This document shows, in pieces, positions 9,381 to 50,179 of a stretch of 64,000 nucleotides of DNA (positions are counted from its first letter, which is position 1; each line of letters starts with the position of its first letter). This stretch comes from a virus. The stretch spans positions 17,602-81,601 of the IMG/VR virus record IMGVR_UViG_3300042507_003741; one strand, written 5' to 3'. The position numbers were made by a program, and so were the translations under genes. Below the pieces are notes generated by a model, which saw only the letters and a list, made by a program, of their open reading frames with translations, was not told the origin of the DNA and did no database searches.

Positions 9381-10366
9381 CACAGTCTCCCAAGAACGTG
9401 AGCCGGAAATGGAAGTTCAACAACCTCGCCGTGCGATTCCGGCAGCCACCAGTCGAGGTCTTCGCGCAATCGAAGTTCAGCAAGGGCGGCATCCATGAGC
9501 CGCCGGCCCTCTGCGACCACAGCAGAAGGGAGAGTCACGACCTGACAGTCGTGAGGCAGAGACGTTGAGACGACAATGAATCGCAGCGGCTGCGGGTCCA
9601 GCCCCATCGCTTCCATGCCGCACTGATACCACGCATCCTGGAGGTGGTAGCGGAAGTCCATGACTGACCGCCAGAAGTTCGCCAGGATGTCCGCCTCGCG
9701 GGTGGTCTTGAGGTCAATTGCCAGACCGTCGCGGGTGATCGCGTCGAACCTGCACTTGAGTTGGTGGCCTTCTGGCGAGCGCCAATACGCGCCCACTTCA
9801 TGCTCGGAGATTGTGGACAGGAGTTCACGGGATGCTGGGTTGTTCTTGATCGCCGACACTTCCGCGACGATCTGGGCTCGCTCCTTCGGGGATACGACTG
9901 TTGCCCCCTCTGGGGCCTCGTTTTTGGCCCATTTCTCCGCTTCTTTGCCAACCAGCCCGGTGGCTGTTAGGGTTGCTGGCGGAGGGACGACCAGCGACTC
10001 AAGGAAGTCATCGCCCAGTTCCAGCCACGAATGCAGCAGCGTGCCATGATCGGTGGCGCTGCTGGAGAACGGCGGCAGGGTCTTGGCGATGTACCGCTGG
10101 TGGTACAGGACAGGCGAGTCAAGGAGCGTTTTGATTCGGCTGCACGACCTGTGCGTTTCATTGGCGTGATACTCGGCGTTTGCCTCTCCTCGCCGAATCA
10201 CGGCCTCTACATGTGGCGAGTACGCTTCCGATTCTGTGGGCGTACATGCTGCTTGTAGGTGCTCCGTTTGAGGGGTTCGTACTTTGCCGGATGCGCAGCC
10301 GAGTTGAAAGTCGGCCGGGCTGTCCGATAAATCACCCCTCACATCAAGTGAGGCAACCATGTCCAA
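9380..10366 (-). CDS. RecE-like PD-(D/E)XK exonuclease (DUF3799-type)
   Basis: The core around residues 70-310 fits RecE/YqaJ-type nucleases: a helix SCSRIKTLLDSPVLYHQRY, DHGTLLHSWLE (glycine-rich GTxxH motif), EVGAYWRSPEGHQLKCRFD with Asp, and AIDLKTTREA (D-x-K), then a Tyr/Gln helix YHLQDAWYQCGM. It would digest duplex 5' ends to give single strands for the ERF protein, with which it is coupled. The first ~55 residues lie over the integrase promoter region and may not be translated. A GTG at 10201 is an alternative start. The homologue at 48162-49022 lacks this extension. Confidence 0.8.
   Translation of the reverse strand: MDMVASLDVRGDLSDSPADFQLGCASGKVRTPQTEHLQAACTPTESEAYSPHVEAVIRRGEANAEYHANETHRSCSRIKTLLDSPVLYHQRYIAKTLPPFSSSATDHGTLLHSWLELGDDFLESLVVPPPATLTATGLVGKEAEKWAKNEAPEGATVVSPKERAQIVAEVSAIKNNPASRELLSTISEHEVGAYWRSPEGHQLKCRFDAITRDGLAIDLKTTREADILANFWRSVMDFRYHLQDAWYQCGMEAMGLDPQPLRFIVVSTSLPHDCQVVTLPSAVVAEGRRLMDAALAELRLREDLDWWLPESHGEVVELPFPAHVLGRL
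10304..10331 (+). promoter_or_regulatory. sigma70-type promoter for integrase 1
   Basis: TTGAAA (10304-10309) and GATAAA (10326-10331) are separated by 16 bases and lie about 28 bases before the integrase start, a good match to a housekeeping promoter. Transcription would begin near 10338, at the foot of the hairpin that covers the ribosome site. Confidence 0.5.
10337..10353 (+). promoter_or_regulatory. hairpin sequestering the integrase ribosome site
   Basis: CCTCAC (10337-10342) pairs perfectly with GTGAGG (10348-10353) across the loop ATCAA. The GAGG in the second arm is the ribosome site for the ATG at 10359, so the fold would block translation. It lies at the expected 5' end of the transcript from the promoter at 10304. 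This could keep integrase low or make it depend on a trans-acting factor or read-through transcription. Confidence 0.5.
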
Positions 10367-11183
10367 TAACCTCCCTGTCCTGGTGGAGCGATACCTCCGC
10401 TCCCGATCCGTCAGTCCTGGCTACGCCCGAAATGTCCGTGCCGTCTGCTTGGCCTGTCGCACCATGTCCGTCGATGCAATCAACACGTATCTGCAAAAAC
10501 GAATCGTCGAGGTGGCTTCGATTACCGCAGCGACCGAGCGAGCGATTCTCGTTGGCATCTGGAAGTGGGCCTACGAAACCGAAGTAGTGGATCGACTGCC
10601 ACGCGGAATAGTCAAGATCAAAATCGCCCGGCGTCCGACTCGGGCGTGGACTATAGAACAGTGCTGTACGGCCGTCAAGGGGACTTTCGCCCTCGCCGAA
10701 GAAGTGCGTCGGAAGCGGGTGACAGTCGGCCTTTTTCTGCGGTGCTGGATGCTGCTGGGGTACGAAACGGGCGCGAGGCACGGGGACTTGTGGGAGATGA
10801 GGCAAGAAGACTTCGACCTGGATGCCGGCACCGTCCGCTGGTCGCAGCACAAGACCGGCGAGCCGCACGTCAAGATCATGAGCCGGCCCTGCCTGCTGGC
10901 CGTCCAGGAGATGCTGGAGCGGTCGCCAGACGGTCGCGTGCTGGGTTGGGTGATGTCAAAGAAATCGGGTCATCGGCGGATGCGGAAGTACCTGCGTGAC
11001 ATGAAGTACGCGGGATCCTCCAAGTGGCTACGCCGCAGCGGGGCCACCCACATTGAGATGGAGCATCCTGGCAAGGGGCGGCTGCATCTTGGTCACAAGA
11101 CGCCTGGACTGGCCGAGCGGTGCTATATCGACTGGTCGCAGGTGCGCAGGGACATCCCGTGCGTGCCGTCGCTACTCAAATAG
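10359..11183 (+). CDS. int: tyrosine integrase, unit 1
   Basis: This 274-residue phage-type tyrosine recombinase has catalytic Arg140 in LGYETGARHGDL, Lys165 in SQHKTGEP, Arg225/226 in SKWLRRSGAT, His246 in HLGHKTPG and Tyr256 in ERCYIDW. The first residue of box II (normally His) appears to be Lys222, as in the second integrase. The N-terminal ~90 residues form the core-binding domain; a separate arm-binding domain is short or absent. It catalyses integration and excision. It is the only plus-strand gene in this half of the window, diverges from the RecE-like gene and converges on the large internal virion gene, overlapping its 3' end by 12 bases. Confidence 0.9.
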   Translation: MSNNLPVLVERYLRSRSVSPGYARNVRAVCLACRTMSVDAINTYLQKRIVEVASITAATERAILVGIWKWAYETEVVDRLPRGIVKIKIARRPTRAWTIEQCCTAVKGTFALAEEVRRKRVTVGLFLRCWMLLGYETGARHGDLWEMRQEDFDLDAGTVRWSQHKTGEPHVKIMSRPCLLAVQEMLERSPDGRVLGWVMSKKSGHRRMRKYLRDMKYAGSSKWLRRSGATHIEMEHPGKGRLHLGHKTPGLAERCYIDWSQVRRDIPCVPSLLK

Positions 11184-41126: not shown

Positions 41127-41270
41127 CTACTTCGCCAACAGGTACAAACCCACGTTGGAGAAGGCGTACCCCAAGTAGGCGACCCCCATGCCGGGATTGC
41201 CCCGCCAGAACTGCTCGGCGGAGACGTAGGCGTAGATCAGCCCCGTCAGTGCTATCAGCCATCCGCTCAT
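41127..41270 (-). CDS. 47-residue membrane protein
   Basis: ATG at 41270 overlaps the preceding stop as ATGA; the product is 47 residues with two short hydrophobic segments (MSGWLIALTGLIYAYVSAEQ and GVAYLGYAFSNVGLYLLAK). The FWRGNPGMGVAYLGYAFSN part recalls a small membrane protein I have seen in many marine and freshwater tailed phages. Function is unknown; a holin or superinfection role has been suggested for such proteins only by analogy. It is the last small gene before the late module. Confidence 0.6.
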   Translation of the reverse strand: MSGWLIALTGLIYAYVSAEQFWRGNPGMGVAYLGYAFSNVGLYLLAK

Positions 41271-41371
41271 TCGTCGTACGGGTAACCGTCCTCCGGGTCT
41301 TCGGTGTACGGGCCGGGCTCCGCGTCCTCATGGAACCAGGGGCGTACGTCGGGGTAGGTGGCTTGTGTCAC
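41267..41371 (-). CDS. 34-residue acidic mini-protein
   Basis: GTG at 41371 overlaps the DUF551 gene stop as GTGA, and its own stop overlaps the next start as ATGA. The 34 residues are rich in Asp, Glu, Pro and Tyr (ATYPDVRPWFHEDAEPGPYT, then EDPEDGYPYDE). Short acidic peptides of this kind can act as inhibitors or DNA mimics, but that is inference. The double coupling is the main support for the gene. Confidence 0.4.
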   Translation of the reverse strand: MTQATYPDVRPWFHEDAEPGPYTEDPEDGYPYDE

Positions 41372-41694
41372 TTTTCGACAGTTTCCGTGCCATCGCTCGG
41401 CGGGGCCGGGAGCGGCATCCAGTTAGTGATCCCGAATGAATCCACATCGTCATCGTCCATGCCGCAGAACCGCCACATCACCCCGTCATGCGATGCCATC
41501 TGAGCAAGGCGAATGTCTTTCGGAAACGCTCTTGTGACAGCCAAGACGGCGGCATGCACTTCCGGCAGCCGCTCCGTCACCGGAATCCAGCGCGGCACTT
41601 GCTCCTCCAACTCTTCGATCTCGGCGTGCATCCTCCGCTCCTCTGGCGTGCAGTCGCAGTTCATGGGCTTCTGGTCGCAGATCGGGCAATACAT
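41368..41694 (-). CDS. DUF551-domain protein with N-terminal zinc knuckle
   Basis: The start follows GAGGAGAAGTAGG; 108 residues. It begins MYCPICDQKPMNCDCTPEER, a possible zinc knuckle, and then has WIPVTERLPEVHAAVLAVTR, DGVMWRFCGMDDDDVDSFGI and TNWMPLPAPP. The W(I/V).V...LP......V....W......ITHWMPLP.PP pattern is the DUF551 domain found in many phage accessory proteins of unknown role. It lies beside attC-like site A and is translationally coupled to the following two mini-genes. Confidence 0.7.
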   Translation of the reverse strand: MYCPICDQKPMNCDCTPEERRMHAEIEELEEQVPRWIPVTERLPEVHAAVLAVTRAFPKDIRLAQMASHDGVMWRFCGMDDDDVDSFGITNWMPLPAPPSDGTETVEK

Positions 41695-41715: not shown

Positions 41716-41762
41716 CAGAACCAAGCGATGCAGCGGACGAGACGCTGATCGCCAGCGTTCTC
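41716..41762 (+). repeat. attC-like palindrome A
   Basis: AAC (41719-41721) and GTT (41757-41759) flank arms GCGATGCAGCG and CGCTGATCGC that pair apart from one extra G in the left arm. This is the R-box, unpaired spacer, L-box, extrahelical-base and terminal-loop order of integron attC sites. The right end abuts the stop of the gene at 41761. Confidence 0.6.
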
Positions 41763-41994
41763 ACTCATCGACACTAACTGCGGCGCCTTCAACGGTCGGC
41801 TCATTGAGTTCATAGGCCGGAACATCAGCCTCCACCCACCGAATCTGTTTGTCGCCGTCGTTTCCTTCCATGCACTCATACGCAATGTTGGCGGCTTCGC
41901 GACCAGCGTTCTGCCAGCCGTTTGCGGAATAATTGCCATCCTCCGACACGCACACCGCTATGCGAACCCGAATCGTTTTTGCTTCGCTCATTGC
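41761..41994 (-). CDS. cassette-like ORF: small hypothetical protein
   Basis: The start at 41994 follows AGGAGACAGG; 77 residues: a short beta strand IRVRIAVCVSEDGNYSANGW, then a helix NAGREAANIAYECMEG and an acidic C-terminus (WVEADVPAYELNEPTVEGAA). It resembles small phage accessory proteins with an RVRIAV.....G.w.A.G start. Its stop touches site A and its ribosome site lies 11 bases from site B, so the gene and one palindrome form a unit of about 296 bases. Function unknown. Confidence 0.6.
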   Translation of the reverse strand, partial: AMSEAKTIRVRIAVCVSEDGNYSANGWQNAGREAANIAYECMEGNDGDKQIRWVEADVPAYELNEPTVEGAAVSVDE

Positions 41995-42011
41995 CTGTCT
42001 CCTGTTCTTGT

Positions 42012-42059
42012 GAGAACCACGCGATGCAGCGGACGAGCCGCTGATCGCTGGCGTTATGC
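42012..42059 (+). repeat. attC-like palindrome B
   Basis: AAC (42015-42017) and GTT (42053-42055) flank arms GCGATGCAGCGG and CCGCTGATCGC around ACGAG, with the same single extra G in the left arm. The right end reads GCGTTATGC, close to the GTTRRRY core. It overlaps the TAA stop of the gene at 42054. Confidence 0.65.
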
Positions 42060-42323
42060 GGTCGGGTACTTCTTCTGAAACTGCTCGTACGTCATCGCGT
42101 CCCCTTGGCCGCCGACGCCTGTTGCGATGAATGACCCGCGCGATACCCGGATGGATTTCACGCCCTTCAACTTCTTCCGGCCGGTGAACTCGCGGTATCT
42201 GATTGCTGACCAGCCCTTGCCTTGGCAGTGGATGCAGACCACAGCCTCCCCTTCGCCTTCGCACATGCCGCGATACAGGCCCGCCCCATGGCATTCGTCG
42301 CACTCACACTTGATGTCTGGCAT
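42054..42323 (-). CDS. cassette-like ORF: DnaJ-type zinc-ribbon protein
   Basis: The start at 42323 follows AGGAGG; 89 residues. The N-terminal half has two CxxC knuckles, KCECDECHGAGLYRG and CIHCQGKGW, the layout of a DnaJ-like zinc ribbon. The C-terminal half is basic (REFTGRKKLKGVKSIRVSRG) and ends in MTYEQFQKKYPTA. It may bind nucleic acid or a partner protein. Its stop lies in palindrome B and its 5' end is 20 bases from palindrome C. Confidence 0.65.
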   Translation of the reverse strand: MPDIKCECDECHGAGLYRGMCEGEGEAVVCIHCQGKGWSAIRYREFTGRKKLKGVKSIRVSRGSFIATGVGGQGDAMTYEQFQKKYPTA

Positions 42324-42342
42324 TTGTCCTCCTGAGTCAACC

Positions 42343-42397
42343 GCATAACCAGCGGATGAAGCGGACGGCGGGGCCGCCGCTGATCCTGCGTGTTCTC
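42343..42397 (+). repeat. attC-like palindrome C
   Basis: AAC (42347-42349) and GTT (42392-42394) flank imperfect arms GGATGAAGCGG and CCGCTGATCC, with the extra G again on the left. The terminal loop forms its own hairpin (GGCGG/CCGCC). The end abuts the stop of the gene at 42396. Confidence 0.6.
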
Positions 42398-42668
42398 AGC
42401 CCAGCCGTTGCAGTATCGATTCAACAGCCACCCTATGCGGCTCATACATGATCGTCGGAAGCATCCGACGGAGCGCCTCCCGCTCCGCGTCGGTGAGCGT
42501 GGGCTGCGGCTCGCGGTAGAGCGACTGCACTGCCATGTCGCCCGCAGCAACCATCTCTGCGTCAGGCCGGTGCAGAAAAAAGTCCGCGTGGTCAGTCCAC
42601 TCAACCATCCACGCCACCGGCTGAGAACCACGCGATGCAGCGGACATATCATCTACCTCGTCTGCCAT
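42396..42668 (-). CDS. cassette-like ORF with PVAW/LYR module and shared C-terminal domain
   Basis: The start at 42668 follows AGGAG; 90 residues. QPVAWMVEWTDHADFFLHRP, then VQSLYREPQP, matches the PVAW...v.LY..PQ module of many phage accessory proteins. The C-terminal PTLTDAEREALRRMLPTIMY ... VESILQRLG is a helical segment also found in the genes at 42707 and 43194. Part of palindrome D lies within its first codons. Function unknown. Confidence 0.6.
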   Translation of the reverse strand: MADEVDDMSAASRGSQPVAWMVEWTDHADFFLHRPDAEMVAAGDMAVQSLYREPQPTLTDAEREALRRMLPTIMYEPHRVAVESILQRLG

Positions 42669-42709
42669 GGTTGCTCCTGTGTTCGATGCCGCTGATCGCT
42701 GGCGTTCTA
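42623..42709 (+). repeat. attC-like palindrome D with long terminal loop
   Basis: AAC (42626-42628) and GTT (42704-42706) flank arms GCGATGCAGCGG and CCGCTGATCGC, identical to those of palindrome B, but about 43 bases separate the arms. The long loop contains the start codon and ribosome site of the gene at 42396-42668. The right end overlaps the TAG stop of the gene at 42707. Confidence 0.6.
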
Positions 42710-42940
42710 ATTGGTCCGCTCAAGCAGGCCGTCGATCACGGCGGCGACCTCCACACTGTCGGCAAACCGCCCCGCGAAGTAGTCTTCTCGCACTCGCCGC
42801 AGCACCTTCCTCAGCGACTCCCGCTCCTCGTCGGTGGGCCGCAGGCGTGCGACCTCCGCCTCTAACTGCTGCACTCGCTCCATCGCCTGGATTAGTGCAT
42901 CCAGATCGTCAGGCATCATCGGCGGCACAAGATCACTCAT
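42707..42940 (-). CDS. cassette-like ORF: helical protein with shared C-terminal domain
   Basis: The start at 42940 follows AAAGGAGACAG; 77 residues. A coiled-coil helix (DLDALIQAMERVQQLEAEVA) leads into RPTDEERESLRKVLRRVRED and SVEVAAVIDGLLERTN. This last module is shared with 43194-43922 (AVLDGLLERT) and in part with 42396-42668. Its stop is inside palindrome D. No function can be given; the small helical protein may be a protein-interaction module. Confidence 0.6.
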   Translation of the reverse strand: MSDLVPPMMPDDLDALIQAMERVQQLEAEVARLRPTDEERESLRKVLRRVREDYFAGRFADSVEVAAVIDGLLERTN

Positions 42941-42970
42941 GTCTGTCTCCTTTACGTTGAAATCACGCAA

Positions 42971-43201
42971 TCACTTCCTGTCGATCACCTTGCGTAGCGT
43001 GTCGGCATCCCGTCGCCGCTCGTCCCCCAGTTGCTCAAGCCTCTCGCGCAGAATGGAGTTCACGCCGCGCAGCCGCCATATCTCGTCTACCAGCGGATCG
43101 GCGCCGGTAGCCCAATGCAGCAGCCACGCCGATCCAATGAACGACGCCGGGATGAGTACGGCCAAGGAGAACCACGCATACCAAGGCATTTCGTTAGGCA
43201 T
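42971..43201 (-). CDS. small membrane protein with cytoplasmic coiled coil
   Basis: This 76-residue protein has one membrane helix (WYAWFSLAVLIPASFIGSAW) followed by a charged helix (IWRLRGVNSILRERLEQLGD). It starts after GGAGAGG and overlaps the upstream gene by 8 bases. The plan resembles Rz-like spanin inner subunits, but length and context are insufficient for that call. It lies just beyond the last attC-like site. Confidence 0.5.
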   Translation of the reverse strand: MPNEMPWYAWFSLAVLIPASFIGSAWLLHWATGADPLVDEIWRLRGVNSILRERLEQLGDERRRDADTLRKVIDRK

Positions 43202-43922
43202 TTGTTGTCCTCTCCAGAAGGCCGTCCAGCACCGCCGCTATCTCGTCGCACGCCACATCGCCAACGTCGGCGTAGGCGTCGCGTACTTCACGCAGGACGA
43301 ATCGCTCCGCGTCGGTCAGCGTGAACGGCGTCAGCGAGCAGTGAAGCGTAGTGCGGCCAACAACGTGGGGGCAGGTCTGCGGGGTGCGGTAGAGCGGGAC
43401 GACCTCCCCGTCGTTTTCGTCCGCTGCCGCGTCGGCGTGTTCGCGGTGCAGCGAAACCATCTGCCATTCGTCGGAGTGTGCCAGCCACGCCACCGGATCC
43501 TGTGTATTGTGCCCCCGCCCACCCGCCGCCTCGCCGGTGCCGGGCCGCGTAACGTCTAGGGGCCGCCCCTCGCCGCTTCCATCGCTGGAGGCCGGTGGCT
43601 GCGCTATCGCAGGCGAGGAGCCATCTGTCTCCACGCATGGTGGAGCAGTCTGATTGCCGGTGCCCAACACGGGTCGCGTCACGGGTTTATCAGTCCCGCC
43701 GCTGCCGCGTCCTTCAGACGCATGAACGCCTGTTGGCAACTGGACTCTCGCCGCCGGCGCGGCGTCATGTTCGGTTCGCTCCCGCTCGCGGAGCATGGCG
43801 TCGGCCCAGCGGTAGGCAGCCGTGAGTAGGTGTTCCCACTGCAATGCAGTTGGGTACTGATTGGCCTCGTCTGACAGCAGCCCGGTCAGGGCCGCAGCGG
43901 CGAAGTGGTCACGGTCTGTCAT
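43194..43922 (-). CDS. hypothetical protein with PVAW module and shared C-terminal domain
   Basis: ATG at 43922 overlaps the upstream stop as ATGA; about 242 residues. An N-terminal helical domain (TDRDHFAAAALTGLLSDEAN ... LLTAAYRWADAMLRER) is followed by a long low-complexity linker, then DPVAWLAHSDEWQMVSLHRE ... VVPLYRTPQ and the C-terminal FTLTDAERFVLREVRDAYAD ... IAAVLDGLLERTTNA. The last two modules are those of 42396-42668 and 42707-42940, so these genes share building blocks. Function unknown; typical of phage accessory genes. Confidence 0.55.
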   Translation of the reverse strand: MTDRDHFAAAALTGLLSDEANQYPTALQWEHLLTAAYRWADAMLRERERTEHDAAPAARVQLPTGVHASEGRGSGGTDKPVTRPVLGTGNQTAPPCVETDGSSPAIAQPPASSDGSGEGRPLDVTRPGTGEAAGGRGHNTQDPVAWLAHSDEWQMVSLHREHADAAADENDGEVVPLYRTPQTCPHVVGRTTLHCSLTPFTLTDAERFVLREVRDAYADVGDVACDEIAAVLDGLLERTTNA

Positions 43923-44146
43923 GTCTTGTCCTCCTCGTTGGCCCACAGCATTGCGGCCTTCTCGTCCCAGCAGTCAGCCCGTCCCATGTCGAACCAGTGC
44001 GGGAAATGTCGCAGCACAGCCCGCGCCTCTTGGCGAACCTCCGTGCGGATCCCCTTGATGCCGCCCTCCACATAGACGTTGGAGAGCCGCACCAGGAAGT
44101 CGCGGGCACGGAGGACCGCTAGCGTTCGTTCACACGGGAGGGTCAT
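43919..44146 (-). CDS. BPSL0761-like family protein
   Basis: ATG at 44146 overlaps the upstream stop as ATGA; 75 residues. The pattern MTLPCERTLAVLRARDFLVR, then VRQEARAVLRHFPHWFDMGR, matches the short family known as BPSL0761 (M(T/L)P.ER..aV..t..FL..L......P..vR..A..LLRHyP). Members are small helical proteins in proteobacterial and phage genomes with no assigned function. It is one of a string of coupled accessory genes. Confidence 0.6.
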   Translation of the reverse strand: MTLPCERTLAVLRARDFLVRLSNVYVEGGIKGIRTEVRQEARAVLRHFPHWFDMGRADCWDEKAAMLWANEEDKT

Positions 44147-49022: not shown

Positions 49023-49351
49023 ATGTACACCTCCGAGGAAAAAAACAGCCCGTCCGTGGGCGACCGTCCGATCCTTCAGCCCTTCCGTGGGCGGAGCCTC
49101 CTGAACGCTTTGCCAAACTGTCCGGCGACAAGAAGGCCGAGACAGAGTTCCATTTGGTGCAGCCAGACGAGGGCTGCGAGAACGGCCAGATAGACCGTCT
49201 CTAAGATTGGCTCAACTCGCTCAAGCAGTGCGAGGAGCGACGGGCCGCTAACCAACTGAGCTAGTTGCCCGAAGCTCTGGAAATACCCCTTATGCTGGGG
49301 CGCCCAACCGTGCGAGGCACCGCGGCAATTATCCCCGGCGGGAGATACACC
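49023..49351. other. divergent intergenic region before integrase 2
   Basis: This gap of about 330 bases holds no well-supported gene. It must carry promoters for integrase 2 (plus) and the recombination operon (minus). A weak plus-strand pair TTGCCC (49265) and TATGCT (49291) is 20 bases apart. On the minus strand at 49247-49270 the sequence CTAGCTCAGTTGGTTAGCG resembles a tRNA D-arm, possibly an attachment-site relic, but no complete tRNA folds here. A minus-strand frame (49076 to about 49246) encodes a hydrophobic stretch (VYLAVLAALVWLHQMELCLG) without a good start. Confidence 0.4.
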
Positions 49352-50179
49352 ATGACTTTGCTGGAGCTTGCTCGCCTCTACCACAACCGCGTGGGAGGAT
49401 CCACAGGATACCTGGAGCAACTGGAGGTTTTCGTCAGGCGACTGGACTGGCAGGCCAAAGACTTGCATCCCGACCGCATCGACGCCTACCTGACGGACGC
49501 CCTGAAGCATCTTGCTCCCTCCACCGTTCGCAACCACAGGAAAATGCTGCGTTGTCTGCTGCATTTCGCCGCCTCCGAGCGACTTGTGGACGCCAGTATA
49601 CTCAGGCCACTCAGGCGTGTCAAGCAGATTCCCCCAAACCCGAGGGCGTGGAGCCATGCGGAGATTCGTTCGCTTCTGGCGGCAGCCGCGAATCTGGCTG
49701 GTGGGCGCAAATGCCCGCGAGCCACGCTGGCACGGGCGTGGATCCTGGTGGCTTACTCCACCGGCCTGCGTCTGGATGACTTGCTTTCGATCAGGCATGA
49801 CCAAATCCGTGGCCAACGTCTCTGCCCCAGTCAGCACAAGGTGGGATGGCCCCATGTCTGCTGGCTGGATGACAATGCCCTGGCAGCCATACGACAACTG
49901 CCGATCCTTGGGCCGCGTATCTTTGGCGACCTGATCTGCCGAGACAAGGTGATGGCCCTGATGCGGCAGATCCGAAAGGCTGCCGGACTGCCTGGCAGCA
50001 CTAAGTTTCTGCGGCGATCAGGGGCGACCTACTGCGAAATCGCCGGGAAAGACGCCACTGGACACTTAGGACATAGAAGCCCTGGCATGAAGGCGTACTA
50101 CGTGGACAGGCTCTTGCTGGCCGAGGAGAAGCGGCAGGAACCTACGGCGCCACCGCTAGAACTGGTTGAGAGCCCCTAG
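49352..50179 (+). CDS. int: tyrosine integrase, unit 2
   Basis: ATG at 49352 has GGCGGGAG upstream; 275 residues. Catalytic residues: Arg140 in AYSTGLRLDDL, Lys163 in SQHKVGWP, Arg221 in TKFLRRSGAT, His241 in HLGHRSPG, and Tyr249 or Tyr250 in KAYYVDR. Box II begins with Lys218 rather than His, as in integrase 1. The N-terminal ~95 residues form the core-binding domain. It promotes site-specific integration and excision. It converges on the large internal virion gene with a 24-base overlap, the same layout as in unit 1. Confidence 0.9.
   Translation: MTLLELARLYHNRVGGSTGYLEQLEVFVRRLDWQAKDLHPDRIDAYLTDALKHLAPSTVRNHRKMLRCLLHFAASERLVDASILRPLRRVKQIPPNPRAWSHAEIRSLLAAAANLAGGRKCPRATLARAWILVAYSTGLRLDDLLSIRHDQIRGQRLCPSQHKVGWPHVCWLDDNALAAIRQLPILGPRIFGDLICRDKVMALMRQIRKAAGLPGSTKFLRRSGATYCEIAGKDATGHLGHRSPGMKAYYVDRLLLAEEKRQEPTAPPLELVESP

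Follow-up and report, generated by a model that had tools for sequence, protein, structure and literature searches.

Four attC-like Sites in the Window

The locus considered here raises the question of whether a row of short palindromes lying among small phage genes is an array of integron gene cassettes and, if so, which enzyme moves them. The window (the whole stretch of 64,000 nucleotides that was analysed) belongs to an 81,601-base IMG/VR virus record. Its portal protein matches phrog_156 (E 1.5e-11) and has no match among 50,697 phage records; 139 relatives were found in virus contigs, the best 80 of which were kept. An ERF-like annealase, exonuclease VIII, a RusA-like resolvase domain, and helicases are also encoded in the window. 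The palindromes, with their scores in the two covariance models R1 and R2, are as follows:

41719–41759, + strand: attC-like site 1, AAC/GTT, short loop (R1 61.1 bits, E 3.9e-19; R2 30.6 bits, E 2.4e-5)
42015–42055, + strand: attC-like site 2, short loop (R1 68.3 bits, E 9e-22; R2 44.2 bits, E 7.2e-9)
42347–42394, + strand: attC-like site 3, one stem mismatch (A:G) (R1 53 bits, E 3.5e-16; R2 29.7 bits, E 4e-5)
42626–42706, + strand: attC-like site 4, long loop with the start codon of gene 42396–42668 (R1 53.7 bits, E 1.9e-16; R2 24.1 bits, E 0.0011)

The sequence-only reading of this DNA had placed four palindromes with AAC/GTT starting at 41719/41757, 42015/42053, 42347/42392, and 42626/42704, and all of them are present there. 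The distances from start to start (296, 332, and 279 nt) agree with the spacing near 300 that it gave, and the arms and the extra G after GAT match its description. Each site is an imperfect hairpin with AAC/GTT boxes, spacers, and an extrahelical base. As for the spacers, which had been described as unpaired, 3 nt (left) and 4 nt (right) are indeed located beside AAC/GTT in sites 1, 2, and 4, but the folds predicted for sites 2 and 4 as DNA pair them in part. The arm sequence CCGCTGATCGCTGGCGTT, with up to three mismatches, occurs three times in the window against 0.19 occurrences expected by chance. Folding of single-stranded DNA gave z values from −2.4 to −3.6 for sites 1–3 and merely from −1.2 to −1.3 for the long-loop site 4.

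Model R1 was built from 42 viral and bacterial sites, two of them from the window. In the R1 scan of 64 kb, the four sites scored 53–68 bits (E 9e-22 to 3.5e-16), and the remainder consisted of reverse-strand echoes and noise (best E 0.015). Model R2 comprises 47 bacterial sites and four sites from IntI-bearing viral contigs and excludes the window sites; its bacterial sites were found via the window arm pattern or R1, so that R2 does not depend on the window sites but does depend on their arm type. The same four sites are top-ranked by R2 (E 7e-9 to 1.1e-3; next E 0.19). Thus, both models, including the one derived mostly from bacterial integron sites, rank the four sites first, in support of the attC architecture proposed from the sequence. 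The R′ boxes of the window read GTTCTCA, GTTATGC, GTTCTCA, and GTTCTAA, which departs from the strict R-box consensus RYYYAAC/GTTRRRY. No Rfam family matching the window sites was found. Outside the array, at 43166–43199, R1 has a weak match (E 1.0) with AGAACCACGC and GTTAGGC in which no stem stands out; it may be the remnant of an attC or a chance occurrence.

Distribution and Conserved Structure of Related Sites

The window arm pattern was found in 101 stretches of viral contigs, and two further arm types were found in 30 and 101 stretches, overlapping in part; in the search with the third arm type, 80 of the 101 stretches were listed, and the 64 new ones among these were scanned. In total, 554 R1 sites were detected in 210 IMG/VR pieces including the window, not all of which are separate contigs, as at least four pairs share a contig by name. 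None of the 210 pieces has R1 sites on both strands, weak reverse-strand palindrome echoes aside. The largest array contains 14 sites, and the median site spacing in viral arrays is 362 nt. Apparently the same set of sites, with equal spacing and scores, is present in L346, L369, and L390, contigs of 146 kb, 205 kb, and 48 kb, which indicates that large phages carry such arrays too.

A looser pattern gave 20 stretches in bacterial genomes; according to the record titles, 14 of them are from Planctomycetota and six are from others (Verrucomicrobiales, proteobacteria, and Spirochaetales). IntI over the curated cut-off is encoded in 6 of the 13 bacterial genomes with looser-pattern sites. A model search detected R1-type sites in 14 of 59 Planctomycetota genomes, a result that does not identify the host of the virus. 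The likeness to planctomycete attC sites, suggested in the sequence-only reading, is borne out by the prevalence of Planctomycetota among these bacterial stretches and by the detection of the window sites with R2. When the array was compared by BLAST with 50,697 phage records and 72,556 plasmid records, no match was better than E 0.3. Three plasmid matches of about 30 bases on the site arms (E 1 to 3, among the matches listed) were judged to be due to chance.

The structure of the viral sites is kept despite variation in their sequences. In alignment A3 (the best 150 of 175 matches; for alignment A10, the best 150 of 158), 9 of 14 pairs have changes on both sides, with 108 double-changed cells against a shuffled mean of 24, although A3 was fitted to the model and leans towards it. 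Alignment A1, whose sites were chosen by fixed arms, showed no covariation excess over shuffles, as expected. When positions were read at fixed offsets from AAC/GTT in 322 sites, 32 different arm pairs were counted, all six inner pairs were formed in 286 sites, and the extra base was G in 313. Beyond AAC/GTT, the viral R boxes depart from RYYYAAC/GTTRRRY, the commonest being GTTCTCA and GTTCTGT.

Cassettes and the Complementarity of Their Ends

The four sites bound three complete cassettes. The cassettes, their genes, and the flanking genes are listed below:

41758–42053, no strand assigned: cassette A, 296 nt between G^TT cuts, ends complementary at 5 of 5 nt compared
42054–42392, no strand assigned: cassette B, 339 nt between G^TT cuts, ends complementary at 5 of 5 nt compared
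42393–42704, no strand assigned: cassette C, 312 nt between G^TT cuts, ends complementary at 5 of 5 nt compared
41761–41991, − strand: cassette A gene (ORF), 76 aa, without assigned function, no Pfam or PHROG match
42054–42323, − strand: cassette B gene (ORF), 89 aa, cysteine-rich, stop overlapping the GTT of site 2; Anti-TRAP E 0.0012, below the Pfam cut-off
42396–42668, − strand: cassette C gene (ORF), 90 aa, start codon within site 4, the attC arm encoding residues SAASRG
41368–41694, − strand: DUF551 gene left of site 1, first cassette (PF04448 E 2.7e-10); no matching left end found
42707–42970, − strand: gene with stop abutting the GTT of site 4 (ORF); far end without an attC detected in the R1 scan
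41127–41270, − strand: left anchor, conserved 47-aa gene left of the array, in 11 contigs including the window
43194–43946, − strand: right anchor, gene right of the array, in 26 contigs including the window

For units that had existed as circles opened at G^TT, the R″ of a site is expected to pair with the bases after the GTT of the previous site and not with those after its own GTT. Sites without exact AAC and GTT (20 of 342) and repeated cassettes were excluded from the comparison. Of 180 viral cassettes, 141 have ends that match over 4 nt; the site's own flank does so in 29, and the shuffled data give 27. In the 64 later-fetched loci, the ends matched in 56 of 70 cassettes (14 own-flank and 9 shuffled). 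Overall, the match was observed in 218 of 276 cassettes, against 45 own-flank and 40 shuffled (maximum of 61 in 1000 shuffles), and bacterial arrays exhibit the same trend (28 of 40, against 18 and 11). In a free circle cut at G^TT, such ends would form one palindrome, and all three cassettes of the window have complementary ends. Judged by their structure in these tests, the sites resemble attC and the units resemble integron cassettes.

These data bear on another explanation, according to which the palindromes are regulatory or terminator hairpins between co-transcribed genes, and exchange occurs via homologous recombination at the repeats, aided by an annealase and an exonuclease. The phage does encode an ERF-like annealase and exonuclease VIII; the sites lie at gene ends and starts, and long-loop hairpins contain a ribosome site and a start codon. 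However, the pairing joins the two ends of one cassette and does not occur across a single site, and cassette-end complementarity is not predicted by a lone hairpin, a terminator, or homologous recombination. Moreover, the stems covary while AAC/GTT and the extra G are kept, and a model made mostly from bacterial integron sites detects these hairpins. We regard this explanation as very improbable.

Exchange of Cassettes between Viruses

Homology blocks in the arrays (at least 85% identity and at least 200 nt) often break at the sites: 75 of 166 right ends are located at −5 to +12 of GTT, against 3% at random positions. These counts see each contig pair from both sides and include related contigs. 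With blocks of at least 150 nt, breaks at GTT were noted at 64 sites in 43 contigs. Ten blocks with 88–99% identity (nine of 306–393 nt and one of 816 nt) have a site at each end in both contigs of the pair; they are pair listings and not independent events. Contig L023 is 98.6% identical to the window over 10.6 kb and diverges at the GTT of site 1, about 100 L023 bases lying beyond. Cassette A is 94% identical to a part of contig L069 over 198 nt ending at GTT. Relatives of the cassette B protein are present in two viral contigs, one of which is a near-identical array contig; the other protein is 48% identical, and there is no R1 site in the piece of its contig examined.

The 11 contigs that have the left anchor gene in common, the window among them, mostly differ in the adjoining cassette families. 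The families beside this gene are alike just in close relatives (the window, L045, and L023; L041 and L048; L042 and L085). Thus, different cassettes occupy one locus. The sequence-only reading had named two outcomes that would speak against it, namely an absence of covariance-model hits and palindromes found as ordinary dispersed repeats without gene exchange among related phages; instead, the models hit the sites, and the repeats come with cassette exchange among related viruses. That reading also suggested possible traffic with host integrons; no cassette in common with a bacterium came up in these searches, which had other aims.

Where contigs share a block, the sites at its right edge resemble each other more closely (median 92%, n = 72) than those at its left edge (70%, n = 45), a comparison that is partly circular because the block ends are set by the alignment. 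Counted per unique site, the ratio of edge to body was 83:38 on the right and 36:25 on the left (p 0.25), without significant asymmetry, so this test does not show the site travelling with the gene to its left. This lack of a significant difference between the two edges agrees with hairpins exchanged by homologous recombination.

As for the cargo, a Pfam search of 104 representative cassette proteins named only ten families with one member each, among them Dam, N6/N4 and C5 DNA methyltransferases, Mom, HNH, AP2, and DUF551. With PHROGs, the same proteins gave DNA methyltransferases, Mom-like proteins (two members), HNH endonucleases, and phosphoadenosine phosphosulfate reductase (in the first 25 of 63 families). 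Many cassettes encode members of one recurring group of small proteins without assigned function, which have motifs like PVAWMVE and LTDAEREAL; the largest cluster contains 59 or 77 of 179 cassette proteins, depending on the clustering threshold. The window proteins 42396–42668 and 42707–42970 were placed in this group by eye.

Gene Polarity and Start Codons within the Sites

In a textbook cassette, the gene runs in the direction of attC, and attC is located at its 3′ end. In the viral arrays, the genes are inverted with respect to the attC top strand: at 211 of 234 viral sites (12–27 in shifted controls), a reading frame of at least 60 codons on the other strand stops at −12 to +15 of GTT, while same-strand stops at AAC, found at 51 of 234 sites, are near the controls (36–47). 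The later viral set has the inverted gene at 113 of 124 sites; a cruder test by the longest reading frame is less clear-cut (119 opposite against 54 same). Since the opposite-strand stops lie at GTT, the attC sits at the 5′ end of the gene. The claim that stop codons in the window are located in or beside the GTT ends agrees with the sequence and the ORFs, and here too the genes are opposite to the attC top strand. The sequence-only reading had mentioned neither this polarity nor the start codon within site 4, the complementary cassette ends, or the attI-like heads of related arrays. In bacterial arrays, same-strand stops at AAC were found at 40 of 59 sites (controls 9–11), and opposite-strand stops at GTT were found at 21 of 59 (controls 2–12).

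Many sites also contain the beginning of a gene. An in-frame ATG with a ribosome-site-like motif was found inside 85 of 142 long-loop sites, compared with 36 for the other two frames combined, and inside none of the 96 short-loop and 27 middle sites.

Among the bacterial loci, L126 and L130 have intI antiparallel to the array, whereas in L128 and L132 the two are parallel. Because its orientation is inconsistent, the top strand was set mainly by cassette-end complementarity and by the bacterial genes ending at AAC. The loci L128 and L132 (the latter with an intI fragment) are planctomycete ones, and their arrangement is comparable to the reverse-orientation IntI mentioned for Spirochaetota in the accessible part of PMC9668308.

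attI-like Heads of the Arrays

In 84 arrays, the left end of the first cassette was looked for as a GTT, 120–900 nt to the left of the first site, whose next 4 nt or more complement the R″ of that site. It was found in 63 arrays and was missing in 21, and a control search right of the last site gave 1 of 75. Nine of these 63 GTTs follow attC right halves missed by R1, and most of the others come after a shared element, such as TTATACGGAACCGTAGAAACACTG followed by GTT. An attI-like profile was made from 44 distinct examples, 13 arrays being omitted by eye, nine of them since an attC right half was present.

In the 64 later loci, the profile gave 23 hits (E up to 0.16, three near-identical pairs among them), all on the strand of the sites and to the left of the first one, and at least four complementary bases were present in 21. 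Over 185 pieces (training ones included), there were 69 hits, all on the site strand, so that an attI-like head is present in 69 of the 155 pieces having at least 300 nt to the left. In a forward test, a search by the attI-like element alone yielded 40 new loci, 30 of which had at least 600 nt to the right; 23 of these 30 have R1 sites to the right on the same strand, and none has them to the left or on the other strand. The profile matched none of the 109 loci that are bacterial or bear IntI. Such a head is also missing from the window, which in this respect differs from a complete integron. That many arrays begin on the left with an attI-like head, and that their first cassette matches it, further argues against mere hairpins exchanged by homology.

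A gene of RusA-like Holliday junction resolvase is located to the left of the attI-like head in 22 of the 69 pieces (for example, in L401) at a median distance of about 660 nt; one representative matches PF05866 with E 1.2e-19.

An Array without IntI and Its Known Relatives

Two recombinase genes are present in the window:

10359–11183, + strand: phage-type tyrosine recombinase (phrog_1 integrase E 5.7e-16; PF00589 over the cut-off; no TIGR02249 match)
49265–50179, + strand: phage-type tyrosine recombinase, not IntI (PF00589 E 4e-4, below the cut-off; no TIGR02249 match)

Both had been called phage-type in the sequence-only reading, and the matches to PF00589 and phrog_1, with none to TIGR02249, are in line with this. 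Its statement that no IntI is visible extends to the whole 81.6-kb record (possibly a partial one), in which TIGR02249 has no match. With four sites clustered within 1 kb and no TIGR02249 match in this possibly partial record, the locus is, as had been proposed, a CALIN-like array inside a phage. Among 99 array-bearing virus records, IntI over the cut-off was found in none, with weaker, sub-threshold matches in five; thus, the intI gene of a complete integron is lacking. This search took in the 99 records collected first.

CALINs in phages are already known. According to the accessible text of Qi et al. 2023 (PMC9892861), 17 CALINs are present in diverse phages, IntI1 recombined five of the six phage attC sites tested, and two phage CALINs are typical same-direction arrays, with one having divergent attC directions. 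The present arrays resemble them in being attC arrays without intI in phage genomes and in having DNA methyltransferases in the cargo. In contrast, the accessible text of that article does not describe a large attC family shared among and specific to viruses, genes that are systematically inverted, an attC loop holding a start codon, or attI-like heads of arrays that lack intI; a search of it for the term gave no mention of planctomycetes. The window array is a variant of a phage CALIN and not a plain member, because its boxes depart from the strict R box and its genes run in the other direction; recombination of its sites by IntI is predicted. The genes running against the attC top strand, the start codon in many long-loop sites, and the attI-like heads without intI look new. 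The listings from searches of the open-licence PMC literature contained nothing about an attC family specific to viruses, about cassettes with inverted genes, or about heads resembling attI in arrays that lack intI.

According to the part available of Ghaly et al. 2021 (PMC8352920), separate attC models exist there for 11 taxa, one of which is the Planctomycetes. The Planctomycetota integrons and arrays found here share with the viral ones the arms (GATGCAGCGGAC...CCGCTGATC), the AAC/GTT spacing, and the extrahelical G, and some Planctomycetota genomes with such arrays have IntI. The bacterial sites differ from the viral ones in longer stems and R boxes TAAC...GTTAGG, and at most of them (40 of 59) a same-strand gene stops at AAC. 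A structure combining attC and protein coding in one sequence was also obtained by Nivina et al., whose synthetic attC sites were built into coding sequences, as cited in the accessible part of PMC8618304; compared with what is cited there, the viral overlap is natural, is located at the gene start, and recurs in many viruses. Reversed polarity and an attC that carries a start codon offer a test of how attC structure and coding coexist.

Proposed Mobilisation of the Cassettes

The array is very probably a row of integron-type cassettes carried by a phage and part of a virus-specific pool mobilised in trans, probably by a host IntI. Site-specific recombination at G^TT of R′ would join each unit (TT...gene...AAC-hairpin-G) to the array; the unit probably passes through a circular form, and the attC probably acts as a folded single strand. 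The attC would thereby be placed at the 5′ end of a gene, many long-loop sites supplying the ribosome site and start codon, and in many relatives the array would start at an attI-like element where the first cassette joins. The viruses tested yielded no intI, which makes the host or another element the probable source of the enzyme. The data show the sites, the cassette boundaries and their complementary ends, the different cassettes at one locus in related viruses, the gene polarity, and the attI-like heads of relatives; we infer the enzyme (IntI), its action in trans, ongoing activity, and the host.

The main rival to a host IntI acting in trans shares the cassette part of this explanation and is not exclusive with it. 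It assumes that the same cassettes are moved by a phage tyrosine recombinase, for example 10359–11183 or 49265–50179. It is consistent with the absence of IntI over the cut-off in the virus records searched and with the frequency of such enzymes, since PF00589 matches are present in 31 of 50 array-bearing virus records (23 over the cut-off) and relatives of the 49265–50179 protein are encoded in 28 of 50. However, these relatives are diverse (26–64% identity to the query), both window proteins look like ordinary phage integrases, and their genes are located at distances of about 31 kb and about 7 kb from the array. In addition, the recombination of single-stranded hairpins is known as a property of IntI. 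Mobilisation by the phage recombinase therefore seems unlikely, and the host IntI is the likeliest mechanism.

On a broader scale, it is somewhat probable that viruses of uncultivated, perhaps planctomycete-infecting, lineages keep their own integron platform without an integrase gene. This platform would consist of an attI-like capture site and private reverse-polarity cassettes, with attC doubling as the 5′ leader or start region, and it would be run by a host IntI in trans or by a virus tyrosine recombinase that took over attC recombination. If so, integron-style capture, so far known from bacterial chromosomes and a few phages, would also operate in an organised gene pool that is widespread among viruses and through which they would trade DNA methyltransferases, Mom-like modification proteins, and many genes without assigned function. 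The array is thus a sign that viruses may operate a system of gene exchange with an enzyme they borrow, and the shuffling of phage accessory genes becomes a directly testable question.

IntI-like proteins are also encoded in 281 viral stretches, of which the best 80 were kept (L153–L232); these may be phage integrons or bacterial contamination, and R1 sites are present in eight of the 80. Six of these eight loci have the canonical arrangement, L158 and L191 being the exceptions.
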